Source: Vulcanimicrobiota bacterium (lineage in GTDB: Bacteria; Vulcanimicrobiota; Vulcanimicrobiia; Vulcanimicrobiales; Vulcanimicrobiaceae). From it: a stretch of DNA of 64,000 nt. The stretch spans positions 62,001 to 126,000 of the forward strand of contig PMSI01000002.1 in assembly GCA_003168375.1 (NCBI GenBank). The letters run 5' to 3'. The position numbers and the translations under genes are program-made. Shown here piece after piece: positions 3,074-62,951 of this stretch. A model generated the notes under the pieces. That model saw nothing but the letters and a program-made list of their open reading frames with translations. It was not told the DNA's origin and did not search any database. Within the stretch, counting starts at the first letter, position 1, and every line of letters begins with the position of its first letter.

Positions 3074-3802
3074 TCAGGGCAGCGTGACGTACAGGTTGTA
3101 CTGAATCGTCGCGGTGAACGAACCGGCCGGCTGCGCGTTCGGGACGACGACGGTCAGGTCGATGCAGTGCTGCTGCGACTGCTTCACCGCGCCGACCCAC
3201 GTCGTCTCACCGCCCGGTCCCTGATTCCAGTACGGCGTGAAGGTCGGCGAGAAGTCCGGCACCGCCCATGACATGAAGCTGACGGTCGGGTAGTTCTCGA
3301 TCGGAAAGGTCCCTGAATTCGCGCCGCCGTTCTTGGTGGTGTTGTAGCCCCAGTCTTGCAGCTTGTAGCTGTTCGTGTAGTAGGTGAAGATCTCGAAGGC
3401 GCACGGGAGGACGGTCGTCCCGTACGGGAGGCTGTAGAAACCGGCGGCCGGCGGGTGCGGGATCACGCGCAGAAAGGCCGCATTCGGATCGGGCTTCGCG
3501 ACGAACTGGACCGGGACCGGCGTCGGCTGCGCCGAGCTCTGCGCGATCATCACCGGCGCGCCGGGCGCGACGTCCCACGCACTGCCCGACGACGCGATCT
3601 GCACGTTCTGCGCGAACGGGTCGGGGAGCGTCGCCTTCTTCGGCGCGAGCCAGCCGACCGGTGCCGGGCTCGGCGTCACCTGGATGCTGATGACGACTTC
3701 CTTGAACGTCTTGAGGCCGGTGAGGGCGTCGGCTTGCGAGACGACCGTCAGGATAGCGAGCGCCGCGAGTGCGAGCAGCCCGAACAGATTGCGGTATCTC
3801 AA
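3074..3802 (-). CDS. secreted protein, last gene of surface cluster
   Basis: Unrecognised exported protein of 242 residues. The TTG start overlaps the preceding stop (TTGA), so it is probably translated by coupling. Residues 5-25 form a hydrophobic signal segment ending in SQADA. The mature chain is rich in Pro, Tyr, Thr and Asn, with cysteines in TTVLPCAFEIF and QQHCIDLTVVV that could form a disulfide. The C terminus ends in an alternating hydrophobic strand (ATIQYNLYVTLP), a feature shared with other proteins of the cluster and reminiscent of pilin terminal strands. Its position at the distal end and its single-domain build would suit a tip or adaptor subunit, but this is inference. Confidence 0.7.
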   Translation of the reverse strand: MRYRNLFGLLALAALAILTVVSQADALTGLKTFKEVVISIQVTPSPAPVGWLAPKKATLPDPFAQNVQIASSGSAWDVAPGAPVMIAQSSAQPTPVPVQFVAKPDPNAAFLRVIPHPPAAGFYSLPYGTTVLPCAFEIFTYYTNSYKLQDWGYNTTKNGGANSGTFPIENYPTVSFMSWAVPDFSPTFTPYWNQGPGGETTWVGAVKQSQQHCIDLTVVVPNAQPAGSFTATIQYNLYVTLP

Positions 3803-4479
3803 TTTCCGATCACCGTGTAGACGATGTAGACGTTGAACTGGCTGGGCGGAATCGTGCCCGACAGCCGCAGCTCGTAGTCGAAGCCCTGCACGAGGTTGCC
3901 CGCGATAGGGCTGCTCCACACGGCCGACATCGCCTGCGGTACGCCGCCGACCCCCGAGTAGTCGATCCCGTTCACGCCGTTGAGGCCGATCGGGTTGCCG
4001 TTGGTCTTGTTGAACGAGGTGGCGGGCGAGAACGGCGAGTTCGTTGCGCTCGACGGGAGCCAGAACAGCGTCGAGAAGATCGGATACGTCGCCGGCAACG
4101 GAACCGGGTTGCTCCCGTTGAGATCGGTCGCGCCTTCGCCGTAGACGACGAACCCGGCGGAGTCGTTGGTCTGCACCTTGACCTGTGCGGCGTACTTGTA
4201 GAGGTACTGATAGCCGACGACGACGTTGCCGAAATCGACGGTCCCGCCGTTGAGCACCGCGCTCGGACCCGGCGTCGGCGTCGAGCCGCTGCCGAGACCG
4301 CCGGTCGGTCCGAATCCGCTGAGGTAGTTGGGGATCACCTGCGCCTTGACGGTCGGCAGGATCTTGTAGTTCAACTGCGCCGACCCGTTCGTTATCGCCG
4401 GCGCGGCGCGCACTATCTGCGGCGTTGCCGTCGTCAGGATCAGGGCTGCGGCCGCGAGCGCCGCGGCGTATTTACGCAT
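3799..4479 (-). CDS. subunit-like secreted protein (paralogue of 9633-10412)
   Basis: Exported protein of 226 residues with a signal peptide cut after IVRA. The mature N terminus NGSAQLNYKI closely resembles YGSAQLKYTV of the protein at 9633-10412, and both continue with an alternating polar/hydrophobic strand, so the two are probably paralogous subunits. The C terminus QFNVYIVYTVIGN is again an alternating hydrophobic strand. The start could be ATG 4479 or the adjacent GTG 4482; GGAG lies upstream at a usable distance from either. It follows the 1415-residue protein by 15 bases and overlaps the next gene by four. No database family is recognised. Confidence 0.75.
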   Translation of the reverse strand: MRKYAAALAAAALILTTATPQIVRAAPAITNGSAQLNYKILPTVKAQVIPNYLSGFGPTGGLGSGSTPTPGPSAVLNGGTVDFGNVVVGYQYLYKYAAQVKVQTNDSAGFVVYGEGATDLNGSNPVPLPATYPIFSTLFWLPSSATNSPFSPATSFNKTNGNPIGLNGVNGIDYSGVGGVPQAMSAVWSSPIAGNLVQGFDYELRLSGTIPPSQFNVYIVYTVIGN

Positions 4480-4494
4480 CACGTCTCGACTCCG

Positions 4495-7400
4495 TCAATT
4501 CGCGATCAGCGTGTAGGTGAGGGTGACCGTCGTCGTCGTGTTGTTGTTCACGGACAACGGGTTGACGGTGACGCGGTATCCCATCATGTTGTCGACCGGC
4601 TTCTTCGGCACCGGATTGGTGCCGGTCCAGGTCGACAGCGCGAGCGTCCCCGCGGTCGGGATGACGGTCCCCGGCGCGACGGTGATGTTCTTCGTGTACG
4701 TCCCCGCGGGGGCGGCCGACTCCGGCGTCAGCCACGTGCTGAGCTGTCCGCTCGAGGTCGACGGGTTGACGTCGGCCGCGACGGAGAGGCTCCAGCCCGC
4801 GGCGGAGTCCGTGTACACCGAGGCGGCGAGCGCATCAGTGAAGTTGACCGTGCCGGTGATCTGGTTGAGGTTGATCAGCGGCAGCGCGCCGGCGGAATTG
4901 TACGTGCAGCCGGGGCACGAGACGATCGGCGTCGCGGTGTACAGCGCGGGAACGTACGAGCCGGCACCGCTCGGGATCACGATCGTGAGCCGCGCGTCGG
5001 TGACGATCCGAACCGTGTTCGAGAGGCTGTAGAGCGCCAGCGCGTTCGGGTTGCCGGCGACGCGCGGATCGGGCGGCGTGGCGTTTGCAGTCGCGACGCT
5101 CGCGTCGAAGCGGAAGGTCGAGTTGACGTCGTACGGATTCTTCGCGTAGAAGAACACGTCGAGGTTCTGTCCGACGGCGACGTTGCAGCCCGACAGGCGC
5201 AGCAGACCCGAGGTCCCCGGCGTCCCGTTGATCGCCTGCACCAGCGAGTTGATCCCGCTGCCGCTGCACTTCGCGCCGGCCGCGCCCGCCCCGTAGACGA
5301 AGATCGACGCCGGGTCGACGAACCACGGGTTCCCGGTGTCGAAGAGCTGGCCCGACGTGTTGGCCCACGGGACCGCGACGCTGACGTCGGTGATCGTCGT
5401 CGAGCCGTTGTTGTGCAGCTCGTACACGTAGCCGTTGCCTTCGGTGAAATCGGCCCACGAACCGACGATCGGCTGGCTCCCGAACGGCACGCTCTGGATC
5501 GGCGCGACCGGCGGGTGCGAAGGCGTCGCGGTGTAGCCGCCGGCGAACGTGAAGCTCGTCTGCGCGGTCGTGTTCGCGACGACCAGGTTCGGGACTTGCG
5601 TCCCGGAGGCTTGGACCACGGCGCCGCCGTTCGCGCCCACGATCGTCCATGCGATCGGATACGATCCGACCGCCGGAGCTACGGCATAGTTGAAGTTGAC
5701 GAAGAGCTTGCCGCCCGGCGGCAGCGAGTTCGCGTCGGCGACCGCGGCGCACGGCGTCGAGGTCTGCGTCGCCGCGACCGGTGCGGTTGAGACCGCGCAC
5801 AGGTCGATGAGCCACTGACCCGCCGTCCCGGTCGCGTTGGCGTTGAACGTCGCCCCGTTCGACGCGGTCACGGAGGTGATCGTCGGGTAGATCCCGGCGC
5901 CGGCCGCCGGTACCGTGATCAGCAGCTGGCTGATGTAGTCGGGGTTCGGATCGAGCCCGGTCGACGTGTTGTCGAACTCGTACTGCCAGGTCGCGTTCGC
6001 CAGCGCCGGGACGACGGTCGGCGTGACGTTCGCGAACATCAGCGTCGGATCGAGCGAGAACACGCCGAGCTCGGTCGAGTCGATGTTCTGCGTCCCCGCG
6101 ATCGCGTTCGTCTGGACGTTGGTCGGACCGACGTTGTAGGGCCCGGCGGCGTAGTTGGCCGTCGCCGCGATCTGCTGGAAGGCGAACGCGGACTGCAGGA
6201 TCGGCATCTTCAGCACGAAGGTGGCGGTCTTGCCGACGGCGAGCGTCGCGCCGCCGACGGACGTCACGAGCGCAAAAGAGTTCGTTGCCAGCGTAGTGTC
6301 GCCGGCCGTCGCCACCGTCCCCCCACACGTCTGGATCGTGCTGCCGGTCGCCTGGATCTTCACGCCCCAGTTCGCGGTCTGGTTCACGCCGTTGATCGTC
6401 GCCGAGGTGATGCACGGGTTGAGGCGCGTGTTGTCGACCGTCGGCGGCATGATCAGCTCGAGCGAGGTCAGGGCTGCGGGCGCACCGTTGTTGACCACGG
6501 TGAGCGTGACCGTATACGTGCCGCCGCTGGCCGCGCCGTCGGTGCCGAGGCGGTACATCATCTGCCGGTACCGCGGCGTCCCGAGCTGGGCGGCGCTGTA
6601 CGCGCCGATCTGCCACGAGTACGTCGCCTGCGTGTTCGAGCCGATCACACCGAAGCCGTAGACGTTGAGCCCGTTGGTCGCACGGTTGGCCATCGTCGCA
6701 CTGATCGTGCTGGCCGCCACGCCGTGGAGCGGCGTGATCTGGGTCTGTAGAACGCATGCCGTGGTGCAGTTGCCGGTCGCGACGGCGATCGTCATCGGGA
6801 TCGGAATGATCGCGTTGGGCGCCAGCGACTGGCCGGCGACCGCGGGGTTCAGGACGATCGTTCGGGCGTTCGGGTTCGTGATGTTCCAAGTCTGACCGAG
6901 CGAGTCGGTCGCCGTCGTGACGCCGACCTGCAATCCGAGCGAGACGAAGTTCCCGGTGTCGTTGTTGATCGTGATCGACTTGATCCCGTCGGCGTTCCAC
7001 ACGCCGTACAACGATCCGGCGTCGTTCCGGAGCGTCGTCGTGACGTTGGTCGCGACCCCGGCCGCGTTCGCGTTGACGTAGGCTCCGGCCGGACTCGTCC
7101 ACTGGAACTGGCCGGAGTAGGACATGACGCGGAACGACTTGGATCCGACCACGGCTCCGGTCCCGACGTCGTACAGCTGCGCGGTGTAGACGTTCGGGCC
7201 GAACGGCGTCTGCGTGGCGCCGAACGAGGTGAAGTTCCCGGTGTTAATCGGGAACGCGAGCTTCTGCGCGCCGGTCGACGTGCCGGCCGCGGTGAACGAG
7301 AACGGAAGTGAGAACGCCTGCGGCTGCCCGAACGCGGGATTGCCGTCGGTGGTCGTCGCGCTGAGCACGACGCCGTTTCCGTTGCTGATCGTGATGCGAT

Positions 7401-8742
7401 AGGTGTGGCCGTTCACGACACCGCTGGCTTGATAGGTCAGCCCCTGGACCGACTGCTCCTGGACGAGGCCGGCCGAGCCGGGGCTGCCCAAGATGCCGTC
7501 GGTCGCGAACGTGTCGCCCAAATTGACGCCGGTCGTGGCCCCGTTGTACGGGATCAGCGGGCTCCACGCGACGGACGCGGGGTTCAGCGAATACTGCTGG
7601 GTCGAGATCAAGTCGTTGGTCGTTGCGTCGTACAACTGCACCGACTGCGTGCCGACCGAGTTTCCGCCGGCCGCCGGCGTCGCGTACTGCCCGTTGAACG
7701 TCTGCGCGGTCGGGATGACGCCGGTCGCACCCTGCACGAAGCACGTCGCGTTGTTGAAGTTTTGCGACCCGGCGGGGATCGCGAACACGCAGGGAAGCCC
7801 GTTGCCCGAGCTGTTCACGAAGCCGAACGAGTAGAAATGCGCGGGGTTCAGCCCAGAGGCGGAGACGTAGACCGTTCCGCCCGAGCCGAAGTCGCTCGAG
7901 ACCGTCGTGAACGCAGCGTCGGAAAACGTGTTGAAGTTCAGCGTACCGAGGACCACGGAGTACGCGACCGCCTCGTATTGGTTCGTCCCGGTGTTCTGGA
8001 CGGCGATCGTCCAGACGCCGGAGTAGGGCGCGTCGGTCGTGCCCACTCGGGTCGGCCCGATCCCGGTGATCGGATCGGGCGACGCCGTGAGCGGGGTCTG
8101 CAGCGACAACTGCGCGTACCACGGCGTCTGCGTGGCGCCGCCTTGCATGCAGCGTCCCGTCGCGTCGGTCGTGAACGTCGCGGAGTAGCCGCCGCCGACG
8201 TAGTTTCGCGACGAGGCGGTGTAGGCCGTACCGTCGGGAGGGAACACGACGTACCGGTACGTCGTGTTCGGCGTCATGTTCTGGCAGAGCCAATAGACGT
8301 TGGAACCGTACGAGAGCGTCTGGTCGTCGAGATACGGGACGGCCGAGGTCCCGGTCAACACGATGGTACCGCCGCTCGCCGAACGCCGATAGCGCGCCTT
8401 GTGGTGGAGGAGGTCGGTCAGCTTCGGAATCGGCGGGCGCGGTCCGCGAAAGACCGTGAGGAGGCTCTGGCCACGCCGCATGGACGCCGGGAGCCGGGCC
8501 AGTGCGGCCGCGGCATCGTCGCTGCCGTTCACGTTCGTCGAGCGCCGCGAACCCTGGGCCGTCTGCGACTGGTCGCCGAACGGAAGTGGGGGCGGGGTGG
8601 GGCCGGACGTCGTGCTGCGAGGGCCGCCGATCGTGCGCTGCGTCGACTGCGTCGACTGCGCCAGAGCGACGAACCCGCCGGCGCCGATGACGGCGGCGAC
8701 GACGATGGCGACGAGCGCCAGCGTTCGCGTCAGGTGTGGCAT
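4495..8742 (-). CDS. giant secreted Thr/Asn-rich surface protein (1415 aa)
   Basis: Predicted extracellular protein. The N-terminal hydrophobic segment (about 7-28, ending FVALAQS) is a signal peptide, followed by a low-complexity Ser/Thr/Pro stretch to about residue 90. The rest is rich in Thr, Asn, Gly, Ala and Val with repeating beta-sandwich-like segments and scattered cysteine pairs, as in Ig-like or DUF11-like surface proteins, though I cannot assign a family. The C terminus TVTLTYTLIAN matches the alternating strand at the ends of the smaller secreted neighbours. GGAG lies five bases before ATG 8742. It is the largest product of the minus-strand cluster and a candidate adhesin or shaft component. 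Confidence 0.8.
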   Translation of the reverse strand: MPHLTRTLALVAIVVAAVIGAGGFVALAQSTQSTQRTIGGPRSTTSGPTPPPLPFGDQSQTAQGSRRSTNVNGSDDAAAALARLPASMRRGQSLLTVFRGPRPPIPKLTDLLHHKARYRRSASGGTIVLTGTSAVPYLDDQTLSYGSNVYWLCQNMTPNTTYRYVVFPPDGTAYTASSRNYVGGGYSATFTTDATGRCMQGGATQTPWYAQLSLQTPLTASPDPITGIGPTRVGTTDAPYSGVWTIAVQNTGTNQYEAVAYSVVLGTLNFNTFSDAAFTTVSSDFGSGGTVYVSASGLNPAHFYSFGFVNSSGNGLPCVFAIPAGSQNFNNATCFVQGATGVIPTAQTFNGQYATPAAGGNSVGTQSVQLYDATTNDLISTQQYSLNPASVAWSPLIPYNGATTGVNLGDTFATDGILGSPGSAGLVQEQSVQGLTYQASGVVNGHTYRITISNGNGVVLSATTTDGNPAFGQPQAFSLPFSFTAAGTSTGAQKLAFPINTGNFTSFGATQTPFGPNVYTAQLYDVGTGAVVGSKSFRVMSYSGQFQWTSPAGAYVNANAAGVATNVTTTLRNDAGSLYGVWNADGIKSITINNDTGNFVSLGLQVGVTTATDSLGQTWNITNPNARTIVLNPAVAGQSLAPNAIIPIPMTIAVATGNCTTACVLQTQITPLHGVAASTISATMANRATNGLNVYGFGVIGSNTQATYSWQIGAYSAAQLGTPRYRQMMYRLGTDGAASGGTYTVTLTVVNNGAPAALTSLELIMPPTVDNTRLNPCITSATINGVNQTANWGVKIQATGSTIQTCGGTVATAGDTTLATNSFALVTSVGGATLAVGKTATFVLKMPILQSAFAFQQIAATANYAAGPYNVGPTNVQTNAIAGTQNIDSTELGVFSLDPTLMFANVTPTVVPALANATWQYEFDNTSTGLDPNPDYISQLLITVPAAGAGIYPTITSVTASNGATFNANATGTAGQWLIDLCAVSTAPVAATQTSTPCAAVADANSLPPGGKLFVNFNYAVAPAVGSYPIAWTIVGANGGAVVQASGTQVPNLVVANTTAQTSFTFAGGYTATPSHPPVAPIQSVPFGSQPIVGSWADFTEGNGYVYELHNNGSTTITDVSVAVPWANTSGQLFDTGNPWFVDPASIFVYGAGAAGAKCSGSGINSLVQAINGTPGTSGLLRLSGCNVAVGQNLDVFFYAKNPYDVNSTFRFDASVATANATPPDPRVAGNPNALALYSLSNTVRIVTDARLTIVIPSGAGSYVPALYTATPIVSCPGCTYNSAGALPLINLNQITGTVNFTDALAASVYTDSAAGWSLSVAADVNPSTSSGQLSTWLTPESAAPAGTYTKNITVAPGTVIPTAGTLALSTWTGTNPVPKKPVDNMMGYRVTVNPLSVNNNTTTTVTLTYTLIAN

Positions 8743-8783
8743 GTAGTCTCCGGAATCCGTTCCGTTGCTGCTGCTTCGTGCGC

Positions 8784-9569
8784 TCAGCGCACCGTGATGT
8801 TCGCCTGTCCTGCGACGAGGTTCGGCCCGCCGTAGTCGACGAGCGCGACGACCGAGTACGAACCCGGAGCGAGCTTCTTCCCGATGGCGTCGATCAGCCG
8901 TTTGCCGGACCGTTCGACGAGCATGCCCTGGGGAAACGCGACGCGGTCGACGACGACGCTGCCTTGCTTGATCTCGACCCGCCCGCTGAGGTACACGTGA
9001 GCGTTTCCGGTATTGTGAAAATCGACGAGGTAGTGCTGGCTGTCGCCGAGCGACTGGGCCTTCACGTCGTCGATCTCACCACCGATGCGCGTCGTCTCGG
9101 GGATCATCACGTAGATCTTCGAAGCGATGCGCTCCACGATCGAGAGCCCTGCGCCGTGGCGCGTGGGCCGGGTCGTGAAGAAGACAAGGTTGCTGTACTC
9201 GCCCGCCGCGGTCGCAGGAACATCGACCGAGAATCGTACTTGGGTGAACGATCCCGGTTCGAGGTCGAACTCACGCGGATTGATGGTGATCGTCTTCGAG
9301 AGCGAGAACGGTGACTTGCCCGGAGGCGCGAACGCGTAGTTGCCGGTCGGCCCGACCGCGTAGTCCGAGAGCGAGGCCACGATATGGACCGCGGCATTGC
9401 TCGTGTTGCGGACGGTGATCGGAAACGTCTCCTGCTTGCCGGGCTGCGTCTGCAACTCGTATTTCGCGGGGGAGACGTCGACGGAGATGTCGGCCGACGA
9501 GGGAGCGGTGAAAGCGAGTCCGAGGACGGCGATCGGCCCGAGGACTCGAACAAGACGCGGTAGGCGCAT
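8784..9569 (-). CDS. periplasmic pilus-chaperone-like protein
   Basis: Exported protein of 261 residues with a signal peptide ending PSSA. Mature residues open with DISVDVSPAKYELQ and a PGKQETFPITVRNTS strand, the layout of PapD-like and related Ig-fold chaperones in which a basic residue and alternating hydrophobics guide a subunit strand. A second Ig-like half starts near residue 150 (RIGGEIDDVKAQ). The sequence also resembles DUF916-type domains, so chaperone function is inferred mainly from its place between a subunit-like gene and the giant surface protein. The start could be GTG 9572 instead of ATG 9569; an AGGA lies 7 or 10 bases upstream. Confidence 0.65.
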   Translation of the reverse strand: MRLPRLVRVLGPIAVLGLAFTAPSSADISVDVSPAKYELQTQPGKQETFPITVRNTSNAAVHIVASLSDYAVGPTGNYAFAPPGKSPFSLSKTITINPREFDLEPGSFTQVRFSVDVPATAAGEYSNLVFFTTRPTRHGAGLSIVERIASKIYVMIPETTRIGGEIDDVKAQSLGDSQHYLVDFHNTGNAHVYLSGRVEIKQGSVVVDRVAFPQGMLVERSGKRLIDAIGKKLAPGSYSVVALVDYGGPNLVAGQANITVR

Positions 9570-9632
9570 CACATTCTTATCCTCGGCCGTTCCCTTCGCC
9601 AGATTCAGTCCGTCGAGCCGACAGGGGTCAAG

Positions 9633-10412
9633 TTACTGCGGGATGACGGCGAACGTGATGACCGACGTCGCCGCGCCCGAGGTCGCGGTGCCGTTGATGT
9701 TCATCTGGACGTCCTGCCCCACGTACTTGAAGGCGATGCCGCTCAGGCCGGTCGTGCCGGAGTAGAGCTGGTAGCCGCCCGCCGTGTAGACCGTCGATGT
9801 CGGGTTCGCCGTCACGTTGGTCGTGACGCCCGCCGGTGCGCCGGCGGCGCCGAAGCCCGTACCGCCCGTCACCGCGCCGAGCGCGCTGAGCAGCTGTCCG
9901 CCGACCGCGTTGACCGTCGGGCACGCCGCGCCGGTGTAGGCGCCGGGGTTACCCGCCGCGCCGGAGGCGGTCGGAAGAGCGTTGAGCGTGTTCGCCGCGC
10001 CGAGCGGGAAAACGCAAACCGCCGTGCCGGCAGGCGCGACGTCGAGGTATTCCATGATCTTCACGCCGCTCGCGTCGTTCGACTGGACGCCGACCGAGAT
10101 GGCGTTCTGGTAGTAGCAGCCGGTGTAGCCGGCGCCCGGAGGCGTCATGCCGCCGTACGTCAGCGTGGCGTTGACGCCTTCCGCGACGGCAGCCGAGCAG
10201 TTGCCCGCGGCCGACGCGAGGATCGAGCCGGCAACGGCGTTCTTGATCGAGCCGGTCACCGGGTCGTAATTGACCGCGATCGAGACGGCAGCCGTCGCAT
10301 TGACGGTGTACTTGAGCTGAGCAGATCCGTAGACCGTCGTGGCAGCCATGCTGGGCGCTGCCGTGGCGGTCGCGATCCCCAGCATGACGAGAGCAGCGAC
10401 TGCTCTTTTCAC
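9633..10412 (-). CDS. secreted pilin-like subunit
   Basis: Exported protein of 259 residues with a signal peptide ending PSMA. The mature chain begins TTVYGSAQLKYTVNATA, an alternating strand like the N-terminal donor strands of CS1/DUF4402-type pilins, and ends in SVITFAVIPQ. Cysteines near residues 72, 99, 133 and 165 could pair. It shares the GSAQL.Y start with the gene product at 3799-4479. An AAAGGA ribosome site precedes GTG 10412 by eight bases, stronger than for most cluster genes and consistent with a major subunit. It lies between the barrel gene (113-base gap) and the chaperone-like gene (63-base gap). Family assignment is tentative. Confidence 0.7.
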   Translation of the reverse strand: MKRAVAALVMLGIATATAAPSMAATTVYGSAQLKYTVNATAAVSIAVNYDPVTGSIKNAVAGSILASAAGNCSAAVAEGVNATLTYGGMTPPGAGYTGCYYQNAISVGVQSNDASGVKIMEYLDVAPAGTAVCVFPLGAANTLNALPTASGAAGNPGAYTGAACPTVNAVGGQLLSALGAVTGGTGFGAAGAPAGVTTNVTANPTSTVYTAGGYQLYSGTTGLSGIAFKYVGQDVQMNINGTATSGAATSVITFAVIPQ

Positions 10413-10525
10413 GTTCGAATCCTTTCGAGAGGGACGCAGAGGAGAAGGCGGAGACCGCCCCCTCCATTGTTAGTTCGAACGTCCTAGGACCAGACCTTAG
10501 CCGCTCGCTCTGCTGTTCGGGCGAC

Positions 10526-13500
10526 TTAACGCAGACTTAGCGAGTACGTCTGGCCTCGCTTGGTCACCAGGGTGGCCGAGTACGGCAGCCCTTTGCGCCA
10601 CAGCCGCATGTCGAACGTGTAGACGCGCCCGCTTGGTTTGGGGAGCAGAATTTTATAGCCGTCTTCGAAGATCAGGGCGTCGCCTTCCTCGATCGCCGCC
10701 AGCGCCTTGATCGTGACCTTGATCGTGTGCCCGGCCTCCGGGGTGCGCGGGCTGACCCGCATGGCGAACAGCGGGACGCTCGGGTCGACCGGGACCAGCG
10801 AGGTGGCGTCGGTGACGTCCTTGCGATGGGCGGTAACGGTCAGCGCGTAGTCGCCCTTGGCCAGTGCCGGGACCAGGATCGCGCCGGTCCAGATGCCGAG
10901 CCGCGGGTCGAGCCGCAGCGGGAAGCCGCCGAAGACGTCGCTCTCGACGAACATCTCCTTTACATCCTTCGCTGCGGTCCGGGCCGTCACGCGGAGCATC
11001 CCGCCGGGTGGGACGGCCGACGGATCGGTGGTCAGCTGGATCGGCTGGCGCCGCCCGTCGCTGAAAGTGTAGACGACTTGCTTCGCGCCCGCGCCGAGCT
11101 TGAACAGCACGCCGGAGAGCGTCGCGCCGCCTTCGAGCGCGAGCGCGCCTTCAGGGCCCGAGAGGACGCTCAGGCCGTCGGGGAGCGTGTCGCCATCGAC
11201 CGAGAGCGTGTACTTGCCGGGCGGCAAGTTGTCGAGCAAGAACGCGCCGTCGTCGTCGGTGATCACCGCGTGTTCGCCCGGCTCGGCGACGACGTACACG
11301 TTCTTGAGGCCGGCGAGCTGTCCGAATCCGCCGTCCGCGGCCGCGACGACGTTCCCGGCGATCGAGCCGAGCGGGGTCGCGACGAAGTTCAGCGGCGTCG
11401 ACGTCCCCGCCGTGACGGTCACCGTCTTCTTGCGGTCGGTCACGAAGGCGACCGTCGACGGCAACGTAGCCTCGACGATCTCGACGGTATGCGCACCCGG
11501 GGTGAGCCGGCCGATCGCGTAGTGCCCGTCGGGCGTCGTCGTGACGGCTTGAATGCCGTCGACCGCGATTCCGACGGCTCCCAGAGCGCGCTTCTTGCCG
11601 TTCGCGTCGGCGGCGACGACCGTACCCTGGACTCCGGCGAAGTTGCCGATCATGAACTGGACCGTCGCGGTCTGCCCGCCCAGGACTTGGATCGACTGGT
11701 ACTCGCGGTCGGCGATCAGACCGGGCTGGATCGTAGCGTCATCGATGCGAATCGTGTGCGTGCCCTGCGTTACGAAGCGGAACTCGAACTCGCCGCTCGC
11801 GTCGGTGCGCTGAGTGATGCGGCCGTCGAGGATGATCAGCGCGTTGTTGTAGCCGCGCACCGAGGGCGCGTTGTACGCGAACGGGGTCGGCGAGACCGAA
11901 TAGGTGACGATCCCCCGGATGACCGCGGGGAGGTTCGGGTTCGAGCGGCCGGTCGCGGCCCGAGGCTGGCCGAACCCGAACGGTCCGACGATCGAGGCTT
12001 GAACCGAGCTGCCGCCCCCGGCGCCGATCCCGGTCTGCCTGAAGACGCTGGCATTGACCTGGAGCGCGACGACGTTCGAGAGCCGGCGCACGAGCGAGAG
12101 CGTCGTGTCGAAGAGTTTGGAGGTGACGCCGTTGTTCGAGGAACTCTGAATCGTCTCGGAGATCTGCGCTTCGAGCTTGCGACCGACCGAGCGGCGATAC
12201 GAGAGCGACTGCGCGAGACCGTCGCCCGCGCTTCCGGTGCCGCCGCTGGAATTGCCGCGCGAAAACTGGTAGGCTGCGACGCCGCCCAGCATCGGGCGGC
12301 TCACGCCCAGCGCCAACTGCCGCTGCGCCGCCGCGCCCTGCGACCCGCCGACCGACGACGCCTGGAACGTCTCGAAGAGCGAGAACTTGCGGATCGATTC
12401 GCTGAACGTTACCGCCGCGGTGCGCTGCAGTGATGCGCCGGTGGCCGAGTGGATCCCGTCGAGGCCGGCGACGTACTGAAAGCCGATCCCACCCCAGCTG
12501 CGTCCGCCGTTGACCGTGAGGCGGTTGTCGTGTTGAACGTCGCCGTCGAGCCGCGTGTCGCTGTGGCCGAGGTCGAGGTCGAGGTCGCCGAAACGCTCGG
12601 AGTGCTTGCGGATGGTGAGGTCGCCGCTGAGGCCCCCTTCGATCGTTCCGGTCAACGTCTGAAAGCCGTTCGGGTCGTAGCGGACCCCGAGCGTCGCGAA
12701 CGTCGACTTCCCTTGCAGATCGGCATGAAACGCGGCCGCGAGGTTTGCGCCATCCGCCACGCCGGTGACGCCGTGATTCGACGAGACCGCGACCTCGGTG
12801 TCGGTCGAGAGCTTCGCGCCGTAGCGCCGGAAGCCGATGTCGGTGATCGACTGACGGCCGCCGTTCTGCTCCGCGGCGCCGAGGTACTGGCCGACCGACA
12901 GGAAGCCGCCCAGCGCGTTCCAGTTGCGGCGCACGCCGTAGATGCGGAACGCCTCTCCGTCCGCCTGCTGCGCGCTCGACACGATGTACGAGATGTCGCC
13001 GTTGCGCACCGGGACGGCCAGGCTGATCCCCCTCGCGAAGCCGCCGATCTGCAGCTGGCTGTCGCTGGGCCCGGTGACCTGCCCGTAGGTGAGCCCGTAT
13101 TTCGGCGTGCGATACGCGACGATCAGCGAGCCGGCCGAGCTCCCTCCCGCCCCGTACCCGAAGGCGTTCGAGAGTGACAGCGCACTTTGCTCGGTCCGGC
13201 GCTCGGCGACCAACGACAGCGCGGTCGCGTAGTTGTCGGCCGCCGCGCTCAAGCCGTTGCGGCTCGACCGGTTCAGGCCCAGCTGGTAGGTTCCGTCGCC
13301 CTTGAGGACGATCGGGCCTTCGCCCAGCCACTTCCGCCGCTTGGGATCGGGGACCGGTGAGCCGGAGGGAGCGGGCGCCGGGGCGTCGATCGCGATGCGC
13401 GGCGCGGCGAACGGCAAGTGAAGCCGGACGGCGAGGAGCGGAGCCGCACGGAGCGCCGTATCCGACGCAAGGCAGAAGGCCGACGCGGTCAGACATGCGG

Positions 13501-13540
13501 CGCCCGCCGCCGCAGTCAGGCGGCGCAGACGAGGACGCAC
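10526..13540 (-). CDS. outer-membrane beta-barrel with carboxypeptidase-regulatory-like repeats, usher-like
   Basis: 1004 residues. An N-terminal hydrophobic stretch (about 8-33) is followed by a Pro-rich linker and a region from about 70 to 510 of short amphipathic strands separated by Gly/Asn/Ser turns, as in outer-membrane barrels. From about 540 come three transthyretin/CarboxypepD_reg-like modules, marked by RTDASGEFEFRFV, VTTTPDGHYAIGRLTPGAHTV and ITDDDGAFLLDNLPPGKYTL, and then an Ig-like C terminus from about 850. A barrel with C-terminal beta-sandwich modules, first in a cluster with a chaperone-like protein and subunits, recalls fimbrial ushers, but I see no clear usher signature. 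The GTG start lacks a good ribosome site. Confidence 0.75.
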   Translation of the reverse strand: MRPRLRRLTAAAGAACLTASAFCLASDTALRAAPLLAVRLHLPFAAPRIAIDAPAPAPSGSPVPDPKRRKWLGEGPIVLKGDGTYQLGLNRSSRNGLSAAADNYATALSLVAERRTEQSALSLSNAFGYGAGGSSAGSLIVAYRTPKYGLTYGQVTGPSDSQLQIGGFARGISLAVPVRNGDISYIVSSAQQADGEAFRIYGVRRNWNALGGFLSVGQYLGAAEQNGGRQSITDIGFRRYGAKLSTDTEVAVSSNHGVTGVADGANLAAAFHADLQGKSTFATLGVRYDPNGFQTLTGTIEGGLSGDLTIRKHSERFGDLDLDLGHSDTRLDGDVQHDNRLTVNGGRSWGGIGFQYVAGLDGIHSATGASLQRTAAVTFSESIRKFSLFETFQASSVGGSQGAAAQRQLALGVSRPMLGGVAAYQFSRGNSSGGTGSAGDGLAQSLSYRRSVGRKLEAQISETIQSSSNNGVTSKLFDTTLSLVRRLSNVVALQVNASVFRQTGIGAGGGSSVQASIVGPFGFGQPRAATGRSNPNLPAVIRGIVTYSVSPTPFAYNAPSVRGYNNALIILDGRITQRTDASGEFEFRFVTQGTHTIRIDDATIQPGLIADREYQSIQVLGGQTATVQFMIGNFAGVQGTVVAADANGKKRALGAVGIAVDGIQAVTTTPDGHYAIGRLTPGAHTVEIVEATLPSTVAFVTDRKKTVTVTAGTSTPLNFVATPLGSIAGNVVAAADGGFGQLAGLKNVYVVAEPGEHAVITDDDGAFLLDNLPPGKYTLSVDGDTLPDGLSVLSGPEGALALEGGATLSGVLFKLGAGAKQVVYTFSDGRRQPIQLTTDPSAVPPGGMLRVTARTAAKDVKEMFVESDVFGGFPLRLDPRLGIWTGAILVPALAKGDYALTVTAHRKDVTDATSLVPVDPSVPLFAMRVSPRTPEAGHTIKVTIKALAAIEEGDALIFEDGYKILLPKPSGRVYTFDMRLWRKGLPYSATLVTKRGQTYSLSLR

Positions 13541-13713: not shown

Positions 13714-14964
13714 ATGGACGTTCGAGGTCTGAGTGATCTCGCGCTGAGCGCGGGATTGAAGACGCAGAACAACTTGGCGAGCGACACCAGTCGTCTCGCT
13801 TCCGGTTTGCGCGTCAACACGGCTGCCGACGATCCGAGCGGGCTCGCGATCGCGGAGAGTCTTGCCTCGCGCGTCGCCGGCCTCGACCAGGGCGTCCACG
13901 AACTCCAGAACGCCAGCAACGCGCTCACGGTCGCCGAAGGCGCGATGAGCACGATCAGTCAGATCCTGCAGCGCATGCGCACGCTGGTGGTCGAGGGCCG
14001 CAGCGATCTCATCAGCACCTCCGACCGCAACGACCTGCAGTCCGAGCTGAGCCAGCTGCGGCTCGAGATCGACCGCATCGCGCAGAACACGTCGTTCAAC
14101 GGGCGCGCGCTCCTCGACGGCAGCGCATCGAGTCAGCTCCCGCTCTCGTCACGCCAGCTGATGATCAACCCGAGCCTGGCCGGCGGCGGCACGCTGATCG
14201 ACACGATCATCGACCCGCTCTCGCCGTACATCCCCGCCAACGCGCCGCAGTTCGCGAACCTGTTGACCGTCGACTCGTACGATCCGGTCTCGAACACGAT
14301 CGGGATCACCGTTACGATCGGCAGCCAGGAGACCTCGTTCGGGTCGGACCAAATCGTCCCGCTCGCGGTTCCCAACGGTTCTGACACACCGGTCGGTCTG
14401 ACGCCGCCGGCGCCGGGCGCGCCGACGTTTCTGCAGAACTCGCAGAACGGCGGCGGACCGCAGGTGCTCGCCTTCAACATGGGGGTCCTGACGCCGGGCG
14501 ACGTCGGCAAGAGCGCGCTGATCGTCTCGCTGCCGGCGCAGTTCAAGGCGCCCGGCGCGGCGCTGCAAGTGAACAGCGGGGACGCCGAAGGCGCCGTCAC
14601 CTCGGTCGACATCGCCGCGATGAGCACGGTCAACCTCGGTGTCAACGAGGTGATCCTCGGCAACGACCTGCAGAACCAGGCCGCCGAGTACCGCATCGAC
14701 TATGCGCTGACGACGGTCGGCGGCGCGCGCGCCACGATCGGCGCGCAGACGGTCGCGCTCCAGGACGCGGCGAACGCCGGGAACACGACCAGCGTCAACA
14801 CACAGGCCGCAGAGAGCGCGATCCGCGATCTGAACGTCGGCTCCGCAGTCACCACCTTCACCCGCGACCAGCTCCAAAACCAGTTCCAGCAGCGCCTCGT
14901 CGCCGACGCGAACAAGCTCTCGCACATCTACGCGACCCTCGTCGCCGACGCGATCGTCCGCTAG
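13714..14964 (+). CDS. fliC: flagellin
   Basis: Filament protein of 416 residues. The N-terminal D0/D1 coiled region (about 1-135) has the family features: a hydrophobic-heptad start, SRLASGLRVNTAADDPSGLAI, and RDLQ/RLEIDRIAQNTSFNGRALLDG. The matching C-terminal helix is about 370-416 (AESAIRDLNVGSAVTTFTRDQL). The middle (about 150-350) is a variable surface-exposed region unlike enteric D2/D3. GGAGGGAAG lies upstream of the ATG, although the spacing is rather long. No other flagellar gene is in the window, so this is a solitary flagellin gene. A 6-bp hairpin at 14980-14995 follows the stop but lacks a T-tract, so termination there is doubtful. Confidence 0.95.
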   Translation: MDVRGLSDLALSAGLKTQNNLASDTSRLASGLRVNTAADDPSGLAIAESLASRVAGLDQGVHELQNASNALTVAEGAMSTISQILQRMRTLVVEGRSDLISTSDRNDLQSELSQLRLEIDRIAQNTSFNGRALLDGSASSQLPLSSRQLMINPSLAGGGTLIDTIIDPLSPYIPANAPQFANLLTVDSYDPVSNTIGITVTIGSQETSFGSDQIVPLAVPNGSDTPVGLTPPAPGAPTFLQNSQNGGGPQVLAFNMGVLTPGDVGKSALIVSLPAQFKAPGAALQVNSGDAEGAVTSVDIAAMSTVNLGVNEVILGNDLQNQAAEYRIDYALTTVGGARATIGAQTVALQDAANAGNTTSVNTQAAESAIRDLNVGSAVTTFTRDQLQNQFQQRLVADANKLSHIYATLVADAIVR

Positions 14965-61787: not shown

Positions 61788-62951
61788 TTACTTCGAGGGC
61801 AGCAACGCCAACTCGGCCTGAGCTGCGCGCACGACGACCGGCTCGTCCGAGGCGATCGCATGGCGGTACTGGTCGCGCGCCAGCGCGATCTTGCCTTGGA
61901 GATTGTAGGTGACCGCAAGCATGTAGTGCAGCCGCCCGTCCTCTTGCGAGACCGCCAGACCCTTGATGTACGCGGCTTCCGCGAGCGGGAACAACCGGTG
62001 CTCGTTGTAGTCGTAGCCGAGGTCGATGTAGGCTTCGGGCCGCATCGGGTCGGAACGGATCGCGCGGTTGTAGTACGTGATCGCCGTCTTCCAGTCGCCC
62101 TGCATGTCGTAGATGTAGCCGATGTCGACCAGCGCCTCGGTCCCCTCGGGACGAATCCCCAGCGCGCGGTCGAGGTACGGGCGAGCGGCCGCGGCGTCGT
62201 TCTTCTCGAGATAGGCTTCGCCCAAGTTGACGACGGCCGGATAGTAGTTGGCGTCGGTGCCCAGACACGACTTCAGGTGCACGATCGCCGCATCGACGCG
62301 GCCGAGATCGACCTGCGCGTTCGCGACGTCGACCCGCGCACCGCACGAAGACGGGCGAATCGCCACGACGTGGCTGAACGCGTCGTACGCCGCTTCGTAT
62401 TTGTGGAGCGCGCGTTGCGCCTGCCCGAGCTCGCTCCAGCGGCCGACGTCGAACGGATGCTGATCGGTGTCGGCCTGCAGCTTGGCCATGTACTGCGCGA
62501 GGTCGCCGGCGCGCTTGTGGACCATCACCAGCCCGGCGTAGCCGCTCTTGCTCGGCAGGCTCTGCTGGAACTCGAACAGCGCGTCGCTGACGCGATCCAG
62601 GACGGCGTAGAGGGCGCCCAGCCGGCTGTGCGTCTCGCGGTCGGCGGAATCGATCGTGAGGATCGCCTTCCACACCTTCTCGGCCTTGGGGTAGTCGGGG
62701 ACGCGGAAGTACAGGTCGCCGAGCAGCCGGCCGGCCGGGATATCCTGGGGATGCCCTGCAACGTACGGCGCCAGCCCCTCGATCGCGCCCTTCGTGTCGC
62801 CGGCGGCGACCCTCGCGCGCGCCGCGTCGAGGACGGCCGGATCGGTCGGGTTCGCGTCCGGGAAAACGACCGTGTGCTCGGTGGCGAGCGAAGGCCCGGC
62901 CTGGATGGCGACGAGAGCAGCCACAACGGCGATGACGCGGAACAGACGCAT
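61788..62951 (-). CDS. secreted TPR protein (387 aa)
   Basis: Exported or periplasmic protein with a signal peptide ending PSLA. From about residue 40 there are eight or more tetratricopeptide repeats, e.g. [60 protein letters not shown] and [23 protein letters not shown] proteins scaffold complexes; TadD of Tad systems is a TPR lipoprotein, but this has no lipobox and is not in the operon. GGAAGGAG precedes ATG 62951 by eight bases. It converges with the membrane GGDEF-EAL gene. Confidence 0.82.

Follow-up and report, generated by a model that had tools for sequence, protein, structure and literature searches.

A candidate chaperone-usher-like surface fibre operon in a Vulcanimicrobiota bacterium

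Results

A tight six-gene operon

The window analyzed here comprises 64,000 nucleotides (positions 62,001 to 126,000 of contig PMSI01000002.1) of a 4.43-Mb Vulcanimicrobiota genome that is 97% complete. Six open reading frames on its minus strand, at positions 3074-13540, form one tight operon encoding, in this order, an usher-like barrel protein, a subunit-like protein (subunit 1), a two-Ig chaperone, a protein of 1415 residues, a second subunit-like protein (subunit 2) and a last secreted protein. All six were located where the initial annotation had placed them and in the order that it gave, with two start codons corrected: the most likely start of the last gene is the TTG at position 3802 and not the GTG at position 3919, so that its product has 242 residues, and for the chaperone gene the ATG at position 9569 is the likelier start. 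The TTG overlaps the stop codon of the subunit 2 gene as TTGA. The intergenic gaps of 113, 63, 41, 12 and -4 bp fit a single transcript, as had been suggested from the spacing and the overlapping starts; a promoter scan gave no signal for or against it.

An usher-like protein with a predicted 24-strand barrel

The first gene (positions 10526-13540, minus strand) encodes a protein of 1004 residues with a signal peptide, a proline-rich linker (about residues 23-75), a predicted outer-membrane barrel and C-terminal beta-sandwiches. An AF2 model built from 27 sequences, of moderate confidence (mean pLDDT 75, pTM 0.49), places 24 long strands in residues 77-523, followed by beta domains to the end of the chain; about five beta-sandwich domains are predicted C-terminal of the barrel. 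The barrel that had been proposed for residues 70-510 is thus borne out by the prediction. When the model was compared with the whole PDB using Foldseek, the top ten matches were all FimD or PapC ushers (E-values from 9e-17 to 8e-13), with low TM-scores (0.3-0.5 by target length), in part because the placement of the domains is uncertain. Re-alignment with a second structural aligner, VIA, gave the highest scores to porins, TonB receptors and AlgE (Z 15-18 over residues 76-524), and no ushers were among its best 50 rows; this ranking of generic large barrels says just that the model is itself a large barrel.

At the sequence level, Pfam searches detected only CarboxypepD_reg and similar beta-sandwich domains. 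The CarboxypepD_reg repeats cover three stretches (E 1e-15), and the usher family PF00577 gave no match at E <= 1; both the repeats and the missing usher signature had been pointed out previously. A full-length hhalign comparison with recognizable archaic ushers of the phylum was significant (96.7%, E 3.6e-10). Dissection of the protein showed that the entire profile signal lies in its C-terminal part, and for the barrel alone the sequence comparison with known ushers found no match (2.4%). The first post-barrel domain matches the usher CTD1 domain (90.5%, E 1.4e-6, 92 columns), compared with 7% for a control set of unrelated CarboxypepD_reg domains. A similar match to CTD2 was not counted, since a generic CarboxypepD_reg control matches usher CTD2 as well (95.5%). 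Because the CTD1 match is specific and the barrel is unmatched by sequence, the assignment of the barrel rests on structure prediction together with one specific domain match, and on this basis the protein is most likely usher-like.

The AF2 model contains no usher N-terminal domain (NTD), which serves to recruit chaperone-subunit complexes: residues 1-75 consist of the signal peptide and a disordered proline-rich stretch, and they are variable and of low complexity in all 27 aligned usher-like proteins. Nor does the predicted barrel contain a plug-sized insertion, the largest inter-strand insertion being 37 residues between strands 3 and 4.

A periplasmic chaperone related to PapD

The third gene (positions 8784-9569, minus strand) encodes a periplasmic two-Ig protein of 261 residues. 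In hhalign, its profile matches those of the PapD-type chaperones from the same phylum (96.5%, E 8e-10), and it still does so when signal peptides are removed (94%, E 1.4e-7), in agreement with the Ig-fold chaperone proposed at the outset. The hhalign E-values are those of single comparisons and were calibrated with shuffled, reversed and unrelated-family controls, which behaved as expected of controls: shuffled and reversed chaperones gave E-values of at least 0.09, and unrelated NEW3 Ig-like proteins from the same genomes gave 0.9%. A more distant class of chaperones found in relatives bridges the two families, matching the operon family at 99.8% and PapD at 96.9%, co-linearly over 216 columns. 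Similarity to the classical chaperones of E. coli is weak (only 37%), and PF00345 (PapD) has no match in the protein.

Two lysines, Lys36 and Lys151, are invariant in all 28 chaperones. Judging from an alignment made by eye, they may correspond to Arg8 and Lys112 of PapD, which together anchor the C-terminus of the subunit. The anchor set of the archaic chaperone CsuC (Arg89/Tyr196/Arg174) (PMC4654587) was not identified in the operon chaperone. Toward the end of domain 2 there is a DYGG motif similar to the NDYG of E. coli chaperones; we do not use it as proof, because the motif is found in classical E. coli chaperones and is absent from the archaic ones of the phylum.

All 28 chaperones also match, weakly, the WxLIP_PGBD family (PF06030, DUF916; best E 1e-5). 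This raises the question of whether the locus is a diderm relative of the WxL complexes of Gram-positive bacteria, with the chaperone as a WxLIP-type protein, the small and large secreted proteins as WxL-like wall proteins, and an unrelated barrel. The parts lists run parallel, as WxL clusters comprise a small domain protein, a large protein with the same C-terminal domain and an interacting protein (PMC10599100). Still, the window chaperone scores 22 bits, under the curated cut-off of 27.3 bits, no WxL domain was detected by Pfam in the six proteins at E <= 1, the similarity to PapD profiles is stronger and extends over more columns, and the cluster goes together with a predicted outer-membrane barrel in a diderm phylum. 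We give this explanation very little credence, and regard the protein as a PapD-like chaperone.

Pilin-like subunits and a large protein with a subunit-like C-terminus

Subunit 1 (positions 9633-10412, minus strand; 259 residues) and subunit 2 (positions 3799-4482, minus strand; 227 residues) are secreted, pilin-like and homologous to each other (hhalign 99.1%). Subunit 1 has conserved cysteines at positions 72, 99 and 133 and ends in a hydrophobic strand; subunit 2 ends in VYTVIGN. The product of the last gene (positions 3074-3802, minus strand; 242 residues) has a beta-strand-like N-terminus and a tyrosine-rich C-terminal strand, and its profile aligns with that of subunit 2 (84.2%, E 7e-6; shuffled sequences gave E-values of at least 0.1). 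Judged from these profiles, it is probably a homolog of subunit 2.

In the AF2 model (mean pLDDT 74), mature subunit 2 forms a sandwich of seven strands and has an extended N-terminus. Its best PDB matches in Foldseek are CfaB, CS20, FimA, FimF, FimI, CsuE, CsuA/B, the pilin domain of PapG, and Caf1. With E-values between 1e-3 and 5e-2 (best 1.2e-3, CfaB) and VIA Z-scores of 6-7, these matches are weak singly. The fold match carries weight because 18 of the best 21 PDB matches are chaperone-usher pilins; one more is an archaeal filament (7pnb). Subunit 2, one of the proteins that had been described as subunit-like, has its closest structures mainly among such pilins. By sequence, the subunit profiles match neither the SCPU proteins of the phylum (hhalign about 2%) nor FimA-type pilins, and none of the Pfam pilin families, including PF05229, reaches threshold. 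A weak match was also seen between subunit 2 (residues 78-127; window positions 4102-4251, minus strand) and NF058581, the C domain of the CPR Pam pilin (E 0.009); this model matches 4 of 24 subunit-2 proteins (best E 6e-4). We keep the Pam pilin as a lead only, since NF058581 scores well under its cut-off where checked, the window protein included, and no literature was found.

The fourth gene (positions 4495-8742, minus strand) encodes the large secreted protein of 1415 residues, a putative tip adhesin. It has no recognized domains. Its last 176 residues (about 1240-1415) match subunit 1 (91.5%, E 8.6e-7), and the match runs from column 58 of the subunit 1 profile to the exact C-terminus, without the N-terminal extension. 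By analogy, this C-terminal layout is that of chaperone-usher tip adhesins, and the large adhesin or tip protein anticipated in the initial annotation does end in a subunit-like domain. C-terminal strands ending in [YFW][TS][LVIFW] are found in 21 of 24 subunit-2 proteins, 17 of 22 last proteins, 19 of 20 large proteins and 12 of 25 subunit-1 proteins, compared with 38 of 945 open reading frames.

These proteins could also be the cargo of a dedicated exporter that makes no fibre, with the barrel and the two-Ig protein serving to secrete and fold individual surface proteins that stay monomeric or coat the cell. The 1415-residue protein is far larger than the usual tip adhesins, the predicted usher is devoid of the NTD and plug of known ushers, and polymerization is itself something that we infer here. 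Three related small subunits and a tip-type layout without the N-terminal extension point, on the other hand, to a polymer, and most of the nearest structures of the subunit fold polymerize by donor strand. We consider the fibreless exporter unlikely.

Conservation of the operon

Of 60 relatives, 24 have the chaperone, and a profile search of 149 genomes from the phylum detected it in 42. The relatives with an untruncated operon all belong to the Ca. Eremiobacterota/WPS-2 lineage. Among the relatives from the species-genome collection that are filed only as a 'bacterium' MAG, several have contigs identical to those of genomes classified in the family or order of the window. When gene content was scored with profiles, all six genes were present on one strand in each of the 19 loci not cut by a contig end. 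Gene order varies among these loci: seven have the order of the window (usher, subunit 1, chaperone, large protein, subunit 2, last protein), eleven have the large protein at the end (usher, subunit 1, chaperone, subunit 2, last protein, large protein), and one (L067) has it in second place (usher, large protein, subunit 1, chaperone, subunit 2, last protein). That the content stays constant while the order is shuffled argues strongly for a single functional unit.

In comparison with the closest relative, dN/dS is 0.07-0.26 for the four comparable genes; the chaperone is the slowest-evolving gene (0.07), and the surface proteins range from 0.17 to 0.26. Against the next-closest relative, values across all six genes are 0.10-0.44, with the usher and the surface proteins at 0.27-0.44. 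Conserved content and strand together with low dN/dS indicate that these are not chance open reading frames. No relatives of the operon were found in viral contigs.

Additional copies occur in two genomes. One (G005) carries a standard operon and a variant locus (L035, 8942-11296) with two chaperone genes and an altered gene order; in another (G002), the chaperone and its flanking genes are present in two copies (L006 and L027, on contigs C1 and C37).

Relationship to described chaperone-usher systems

Proteobacteria are the main group known to have chaperone-usher pili; pili of the archaic types occur in Cyanobacteria and Deinococcus-Thermus as well (PMC4654587). The canonical Usher, PapD_N and SCPU families occur elsewhere in the phylum of the window (9 of 60, 23 of 148 and 22 of 148 genomes, respectively) and never match at the operon. 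While the 9 relatives have genuine PF00577 ushers elsewhere in their genomes, neither PF00577 nor PF00345 has any match in the genome of the window. This genome does contain a single SCPU (archaic pilin) protein (L187, G000:C4 around 607060-607476), with no recognizable usher or PapD chaperone.

Of the described systems, the archaic (sigma, Csu-type) one shares with the operon a barrel usher with C-terminal domains, a two-Ig chaperone, small related subunits and a tip protein with a C-terminal pilin-like domain, all in one operon. It differs in several respects: the operon proteins match none of PF00577, PF00345 and PF05229, the usher has no predicted NTD or plug and about five post-barrel beta-sandwiches instead of two, the usher gene comes first, the subunits are unrelated to SCPU by sequence, and the CsuC anchor set was not identified. 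The classical Fim/Pap systems supply the nearest solved structures of the barrel (FimD/PapC, by Foldseek), a similar subunit fold (FimA/FimF/FimI) and the NDYG motif that DYGG resembles, whereas in profile comparisons the chaperones (37%) and ushers (32%) of E. coli are weakly similar. As for the alternate (alpha; CFA/I, ECP) systems, no structure matches subunit 2 better than CfaB, but single sequences of EcpB and EcpC give no match and the barrel protein does not match the TcfC/CooC domains. WxL clusters share the weak WxLIP_PGBD similarity of the chaperone and the small/large/interacting parts list, and differ in their WxL domain, Gram-positive host and lack of an outer-membrane barrel.

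The profiles of the chaperone and CTD1 are most similar to archaic proteins of the same phylum, in which archaic loci are common, so that the operon might be viewed as an ordinary archaic locus that has drifted past Pfam thresholds. The distances argue otherwise. Aligned with classical ushers, the archaic ones reach E 1.9e-40 over 717 columns, while the operon usher, which lies far outside both, reaches 3.6e-10 against archaic ushers through its C-terminal domains only; the NTD and plug are missing from its model; and 8 of 36 genomes with the operon chaperone also have a recognizable canonical PapD chaperone, which indicates that the two systems are separate. Simple drift of an archaic locus is therefore very improbable. 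The operon does not belong to a described clade, because the Usher, PapD and SCPU families stay below threshold, the NTD and plug are absent from the model and there are extra C-terminal domains.

Proposed fibre assembly

The operon contains the parts of a chaperone-usher pathway that had been read from the sequence initially: a predicted barrel, a PapD-like chaperone, pilin-like subunits and a tip-type protein, in a cluster kept as a unit. It is most likely a deeply diverged fibre assembly system of the chaperone-usher kind, outside the described clades, and we think it quite probable that its product is a thin surface fibre, put together in a chaperone-usher-like way. An outer membrane bearing LPS is described for a cultured member of the phylum (PMC9758169), and we count this in favor of the fibre. 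The assembly steps, donor-strand exchange among them, are proposed by extension from known systems. The two subunits and the last protein would enter the periplasm through their Sec signal peptides, where the two-Ig chaperone would bind the C-terminal strand of each and complete its Ig fold by lending one of the chaperone's strands. Docking of the complexes may then take place on the periplasmic beta-sandwiches of the 24-strand barrel; there the next subunit would displace the chaperone with its N-terminal strand, and the chain would be pushed out through the barrel. Because its pilin-like domain has no N-terminal donor extension, the 1415-residue protein would sit at the tip, as the likely adhesin.

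We also propose, tentatively and short of an even chance, that the operon represents a separate deep branch whose usher has no NTD or plug and uses a row of periplasmic beta-sandwiches instead. If true, the operon would be an outgroup against which the origin of chaperone-usher pili could be traced, its chaperone would fall between PapD and the WxLIP proteins, and a stripped-down usher from a little-studied soil phylum would reveal which usher parts are essential. The operon would also point out the surface fibre with which these bacteria likely adhere. The annotation models of Pfam and NCBIfam miss this system. Within Pfam, NCBIfam, the PDB and the open-access papers searched, it is indeed undescribed, as had been suggested, and no paper in this open-access literature joins Eremiobacter* and usher.

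Neighbouring and related loci

A second undescribed class of loci (L038, L039, L044, L046, L050 and L188) encodes a distant relative of the chaperone, several secreted proteins of 170-210 residues, many with similar ends (for example, ADTYAALSGFSVAASAT), and a putative barrel protein of 700-780 residues that often ends in F. Those tested gave no Pfam usher or pilin match. In the window, the operon adjoins a divergently oriented flagellin gene (positions 13714-14964, plus strand; Flagellin_N E 1e-33, Flagellin_C E 8e-8). The cultured member of the phylum was reported to be without flagella (PMC9758169). The genome of the window has two more flagellin genes, grouped on contig C6.
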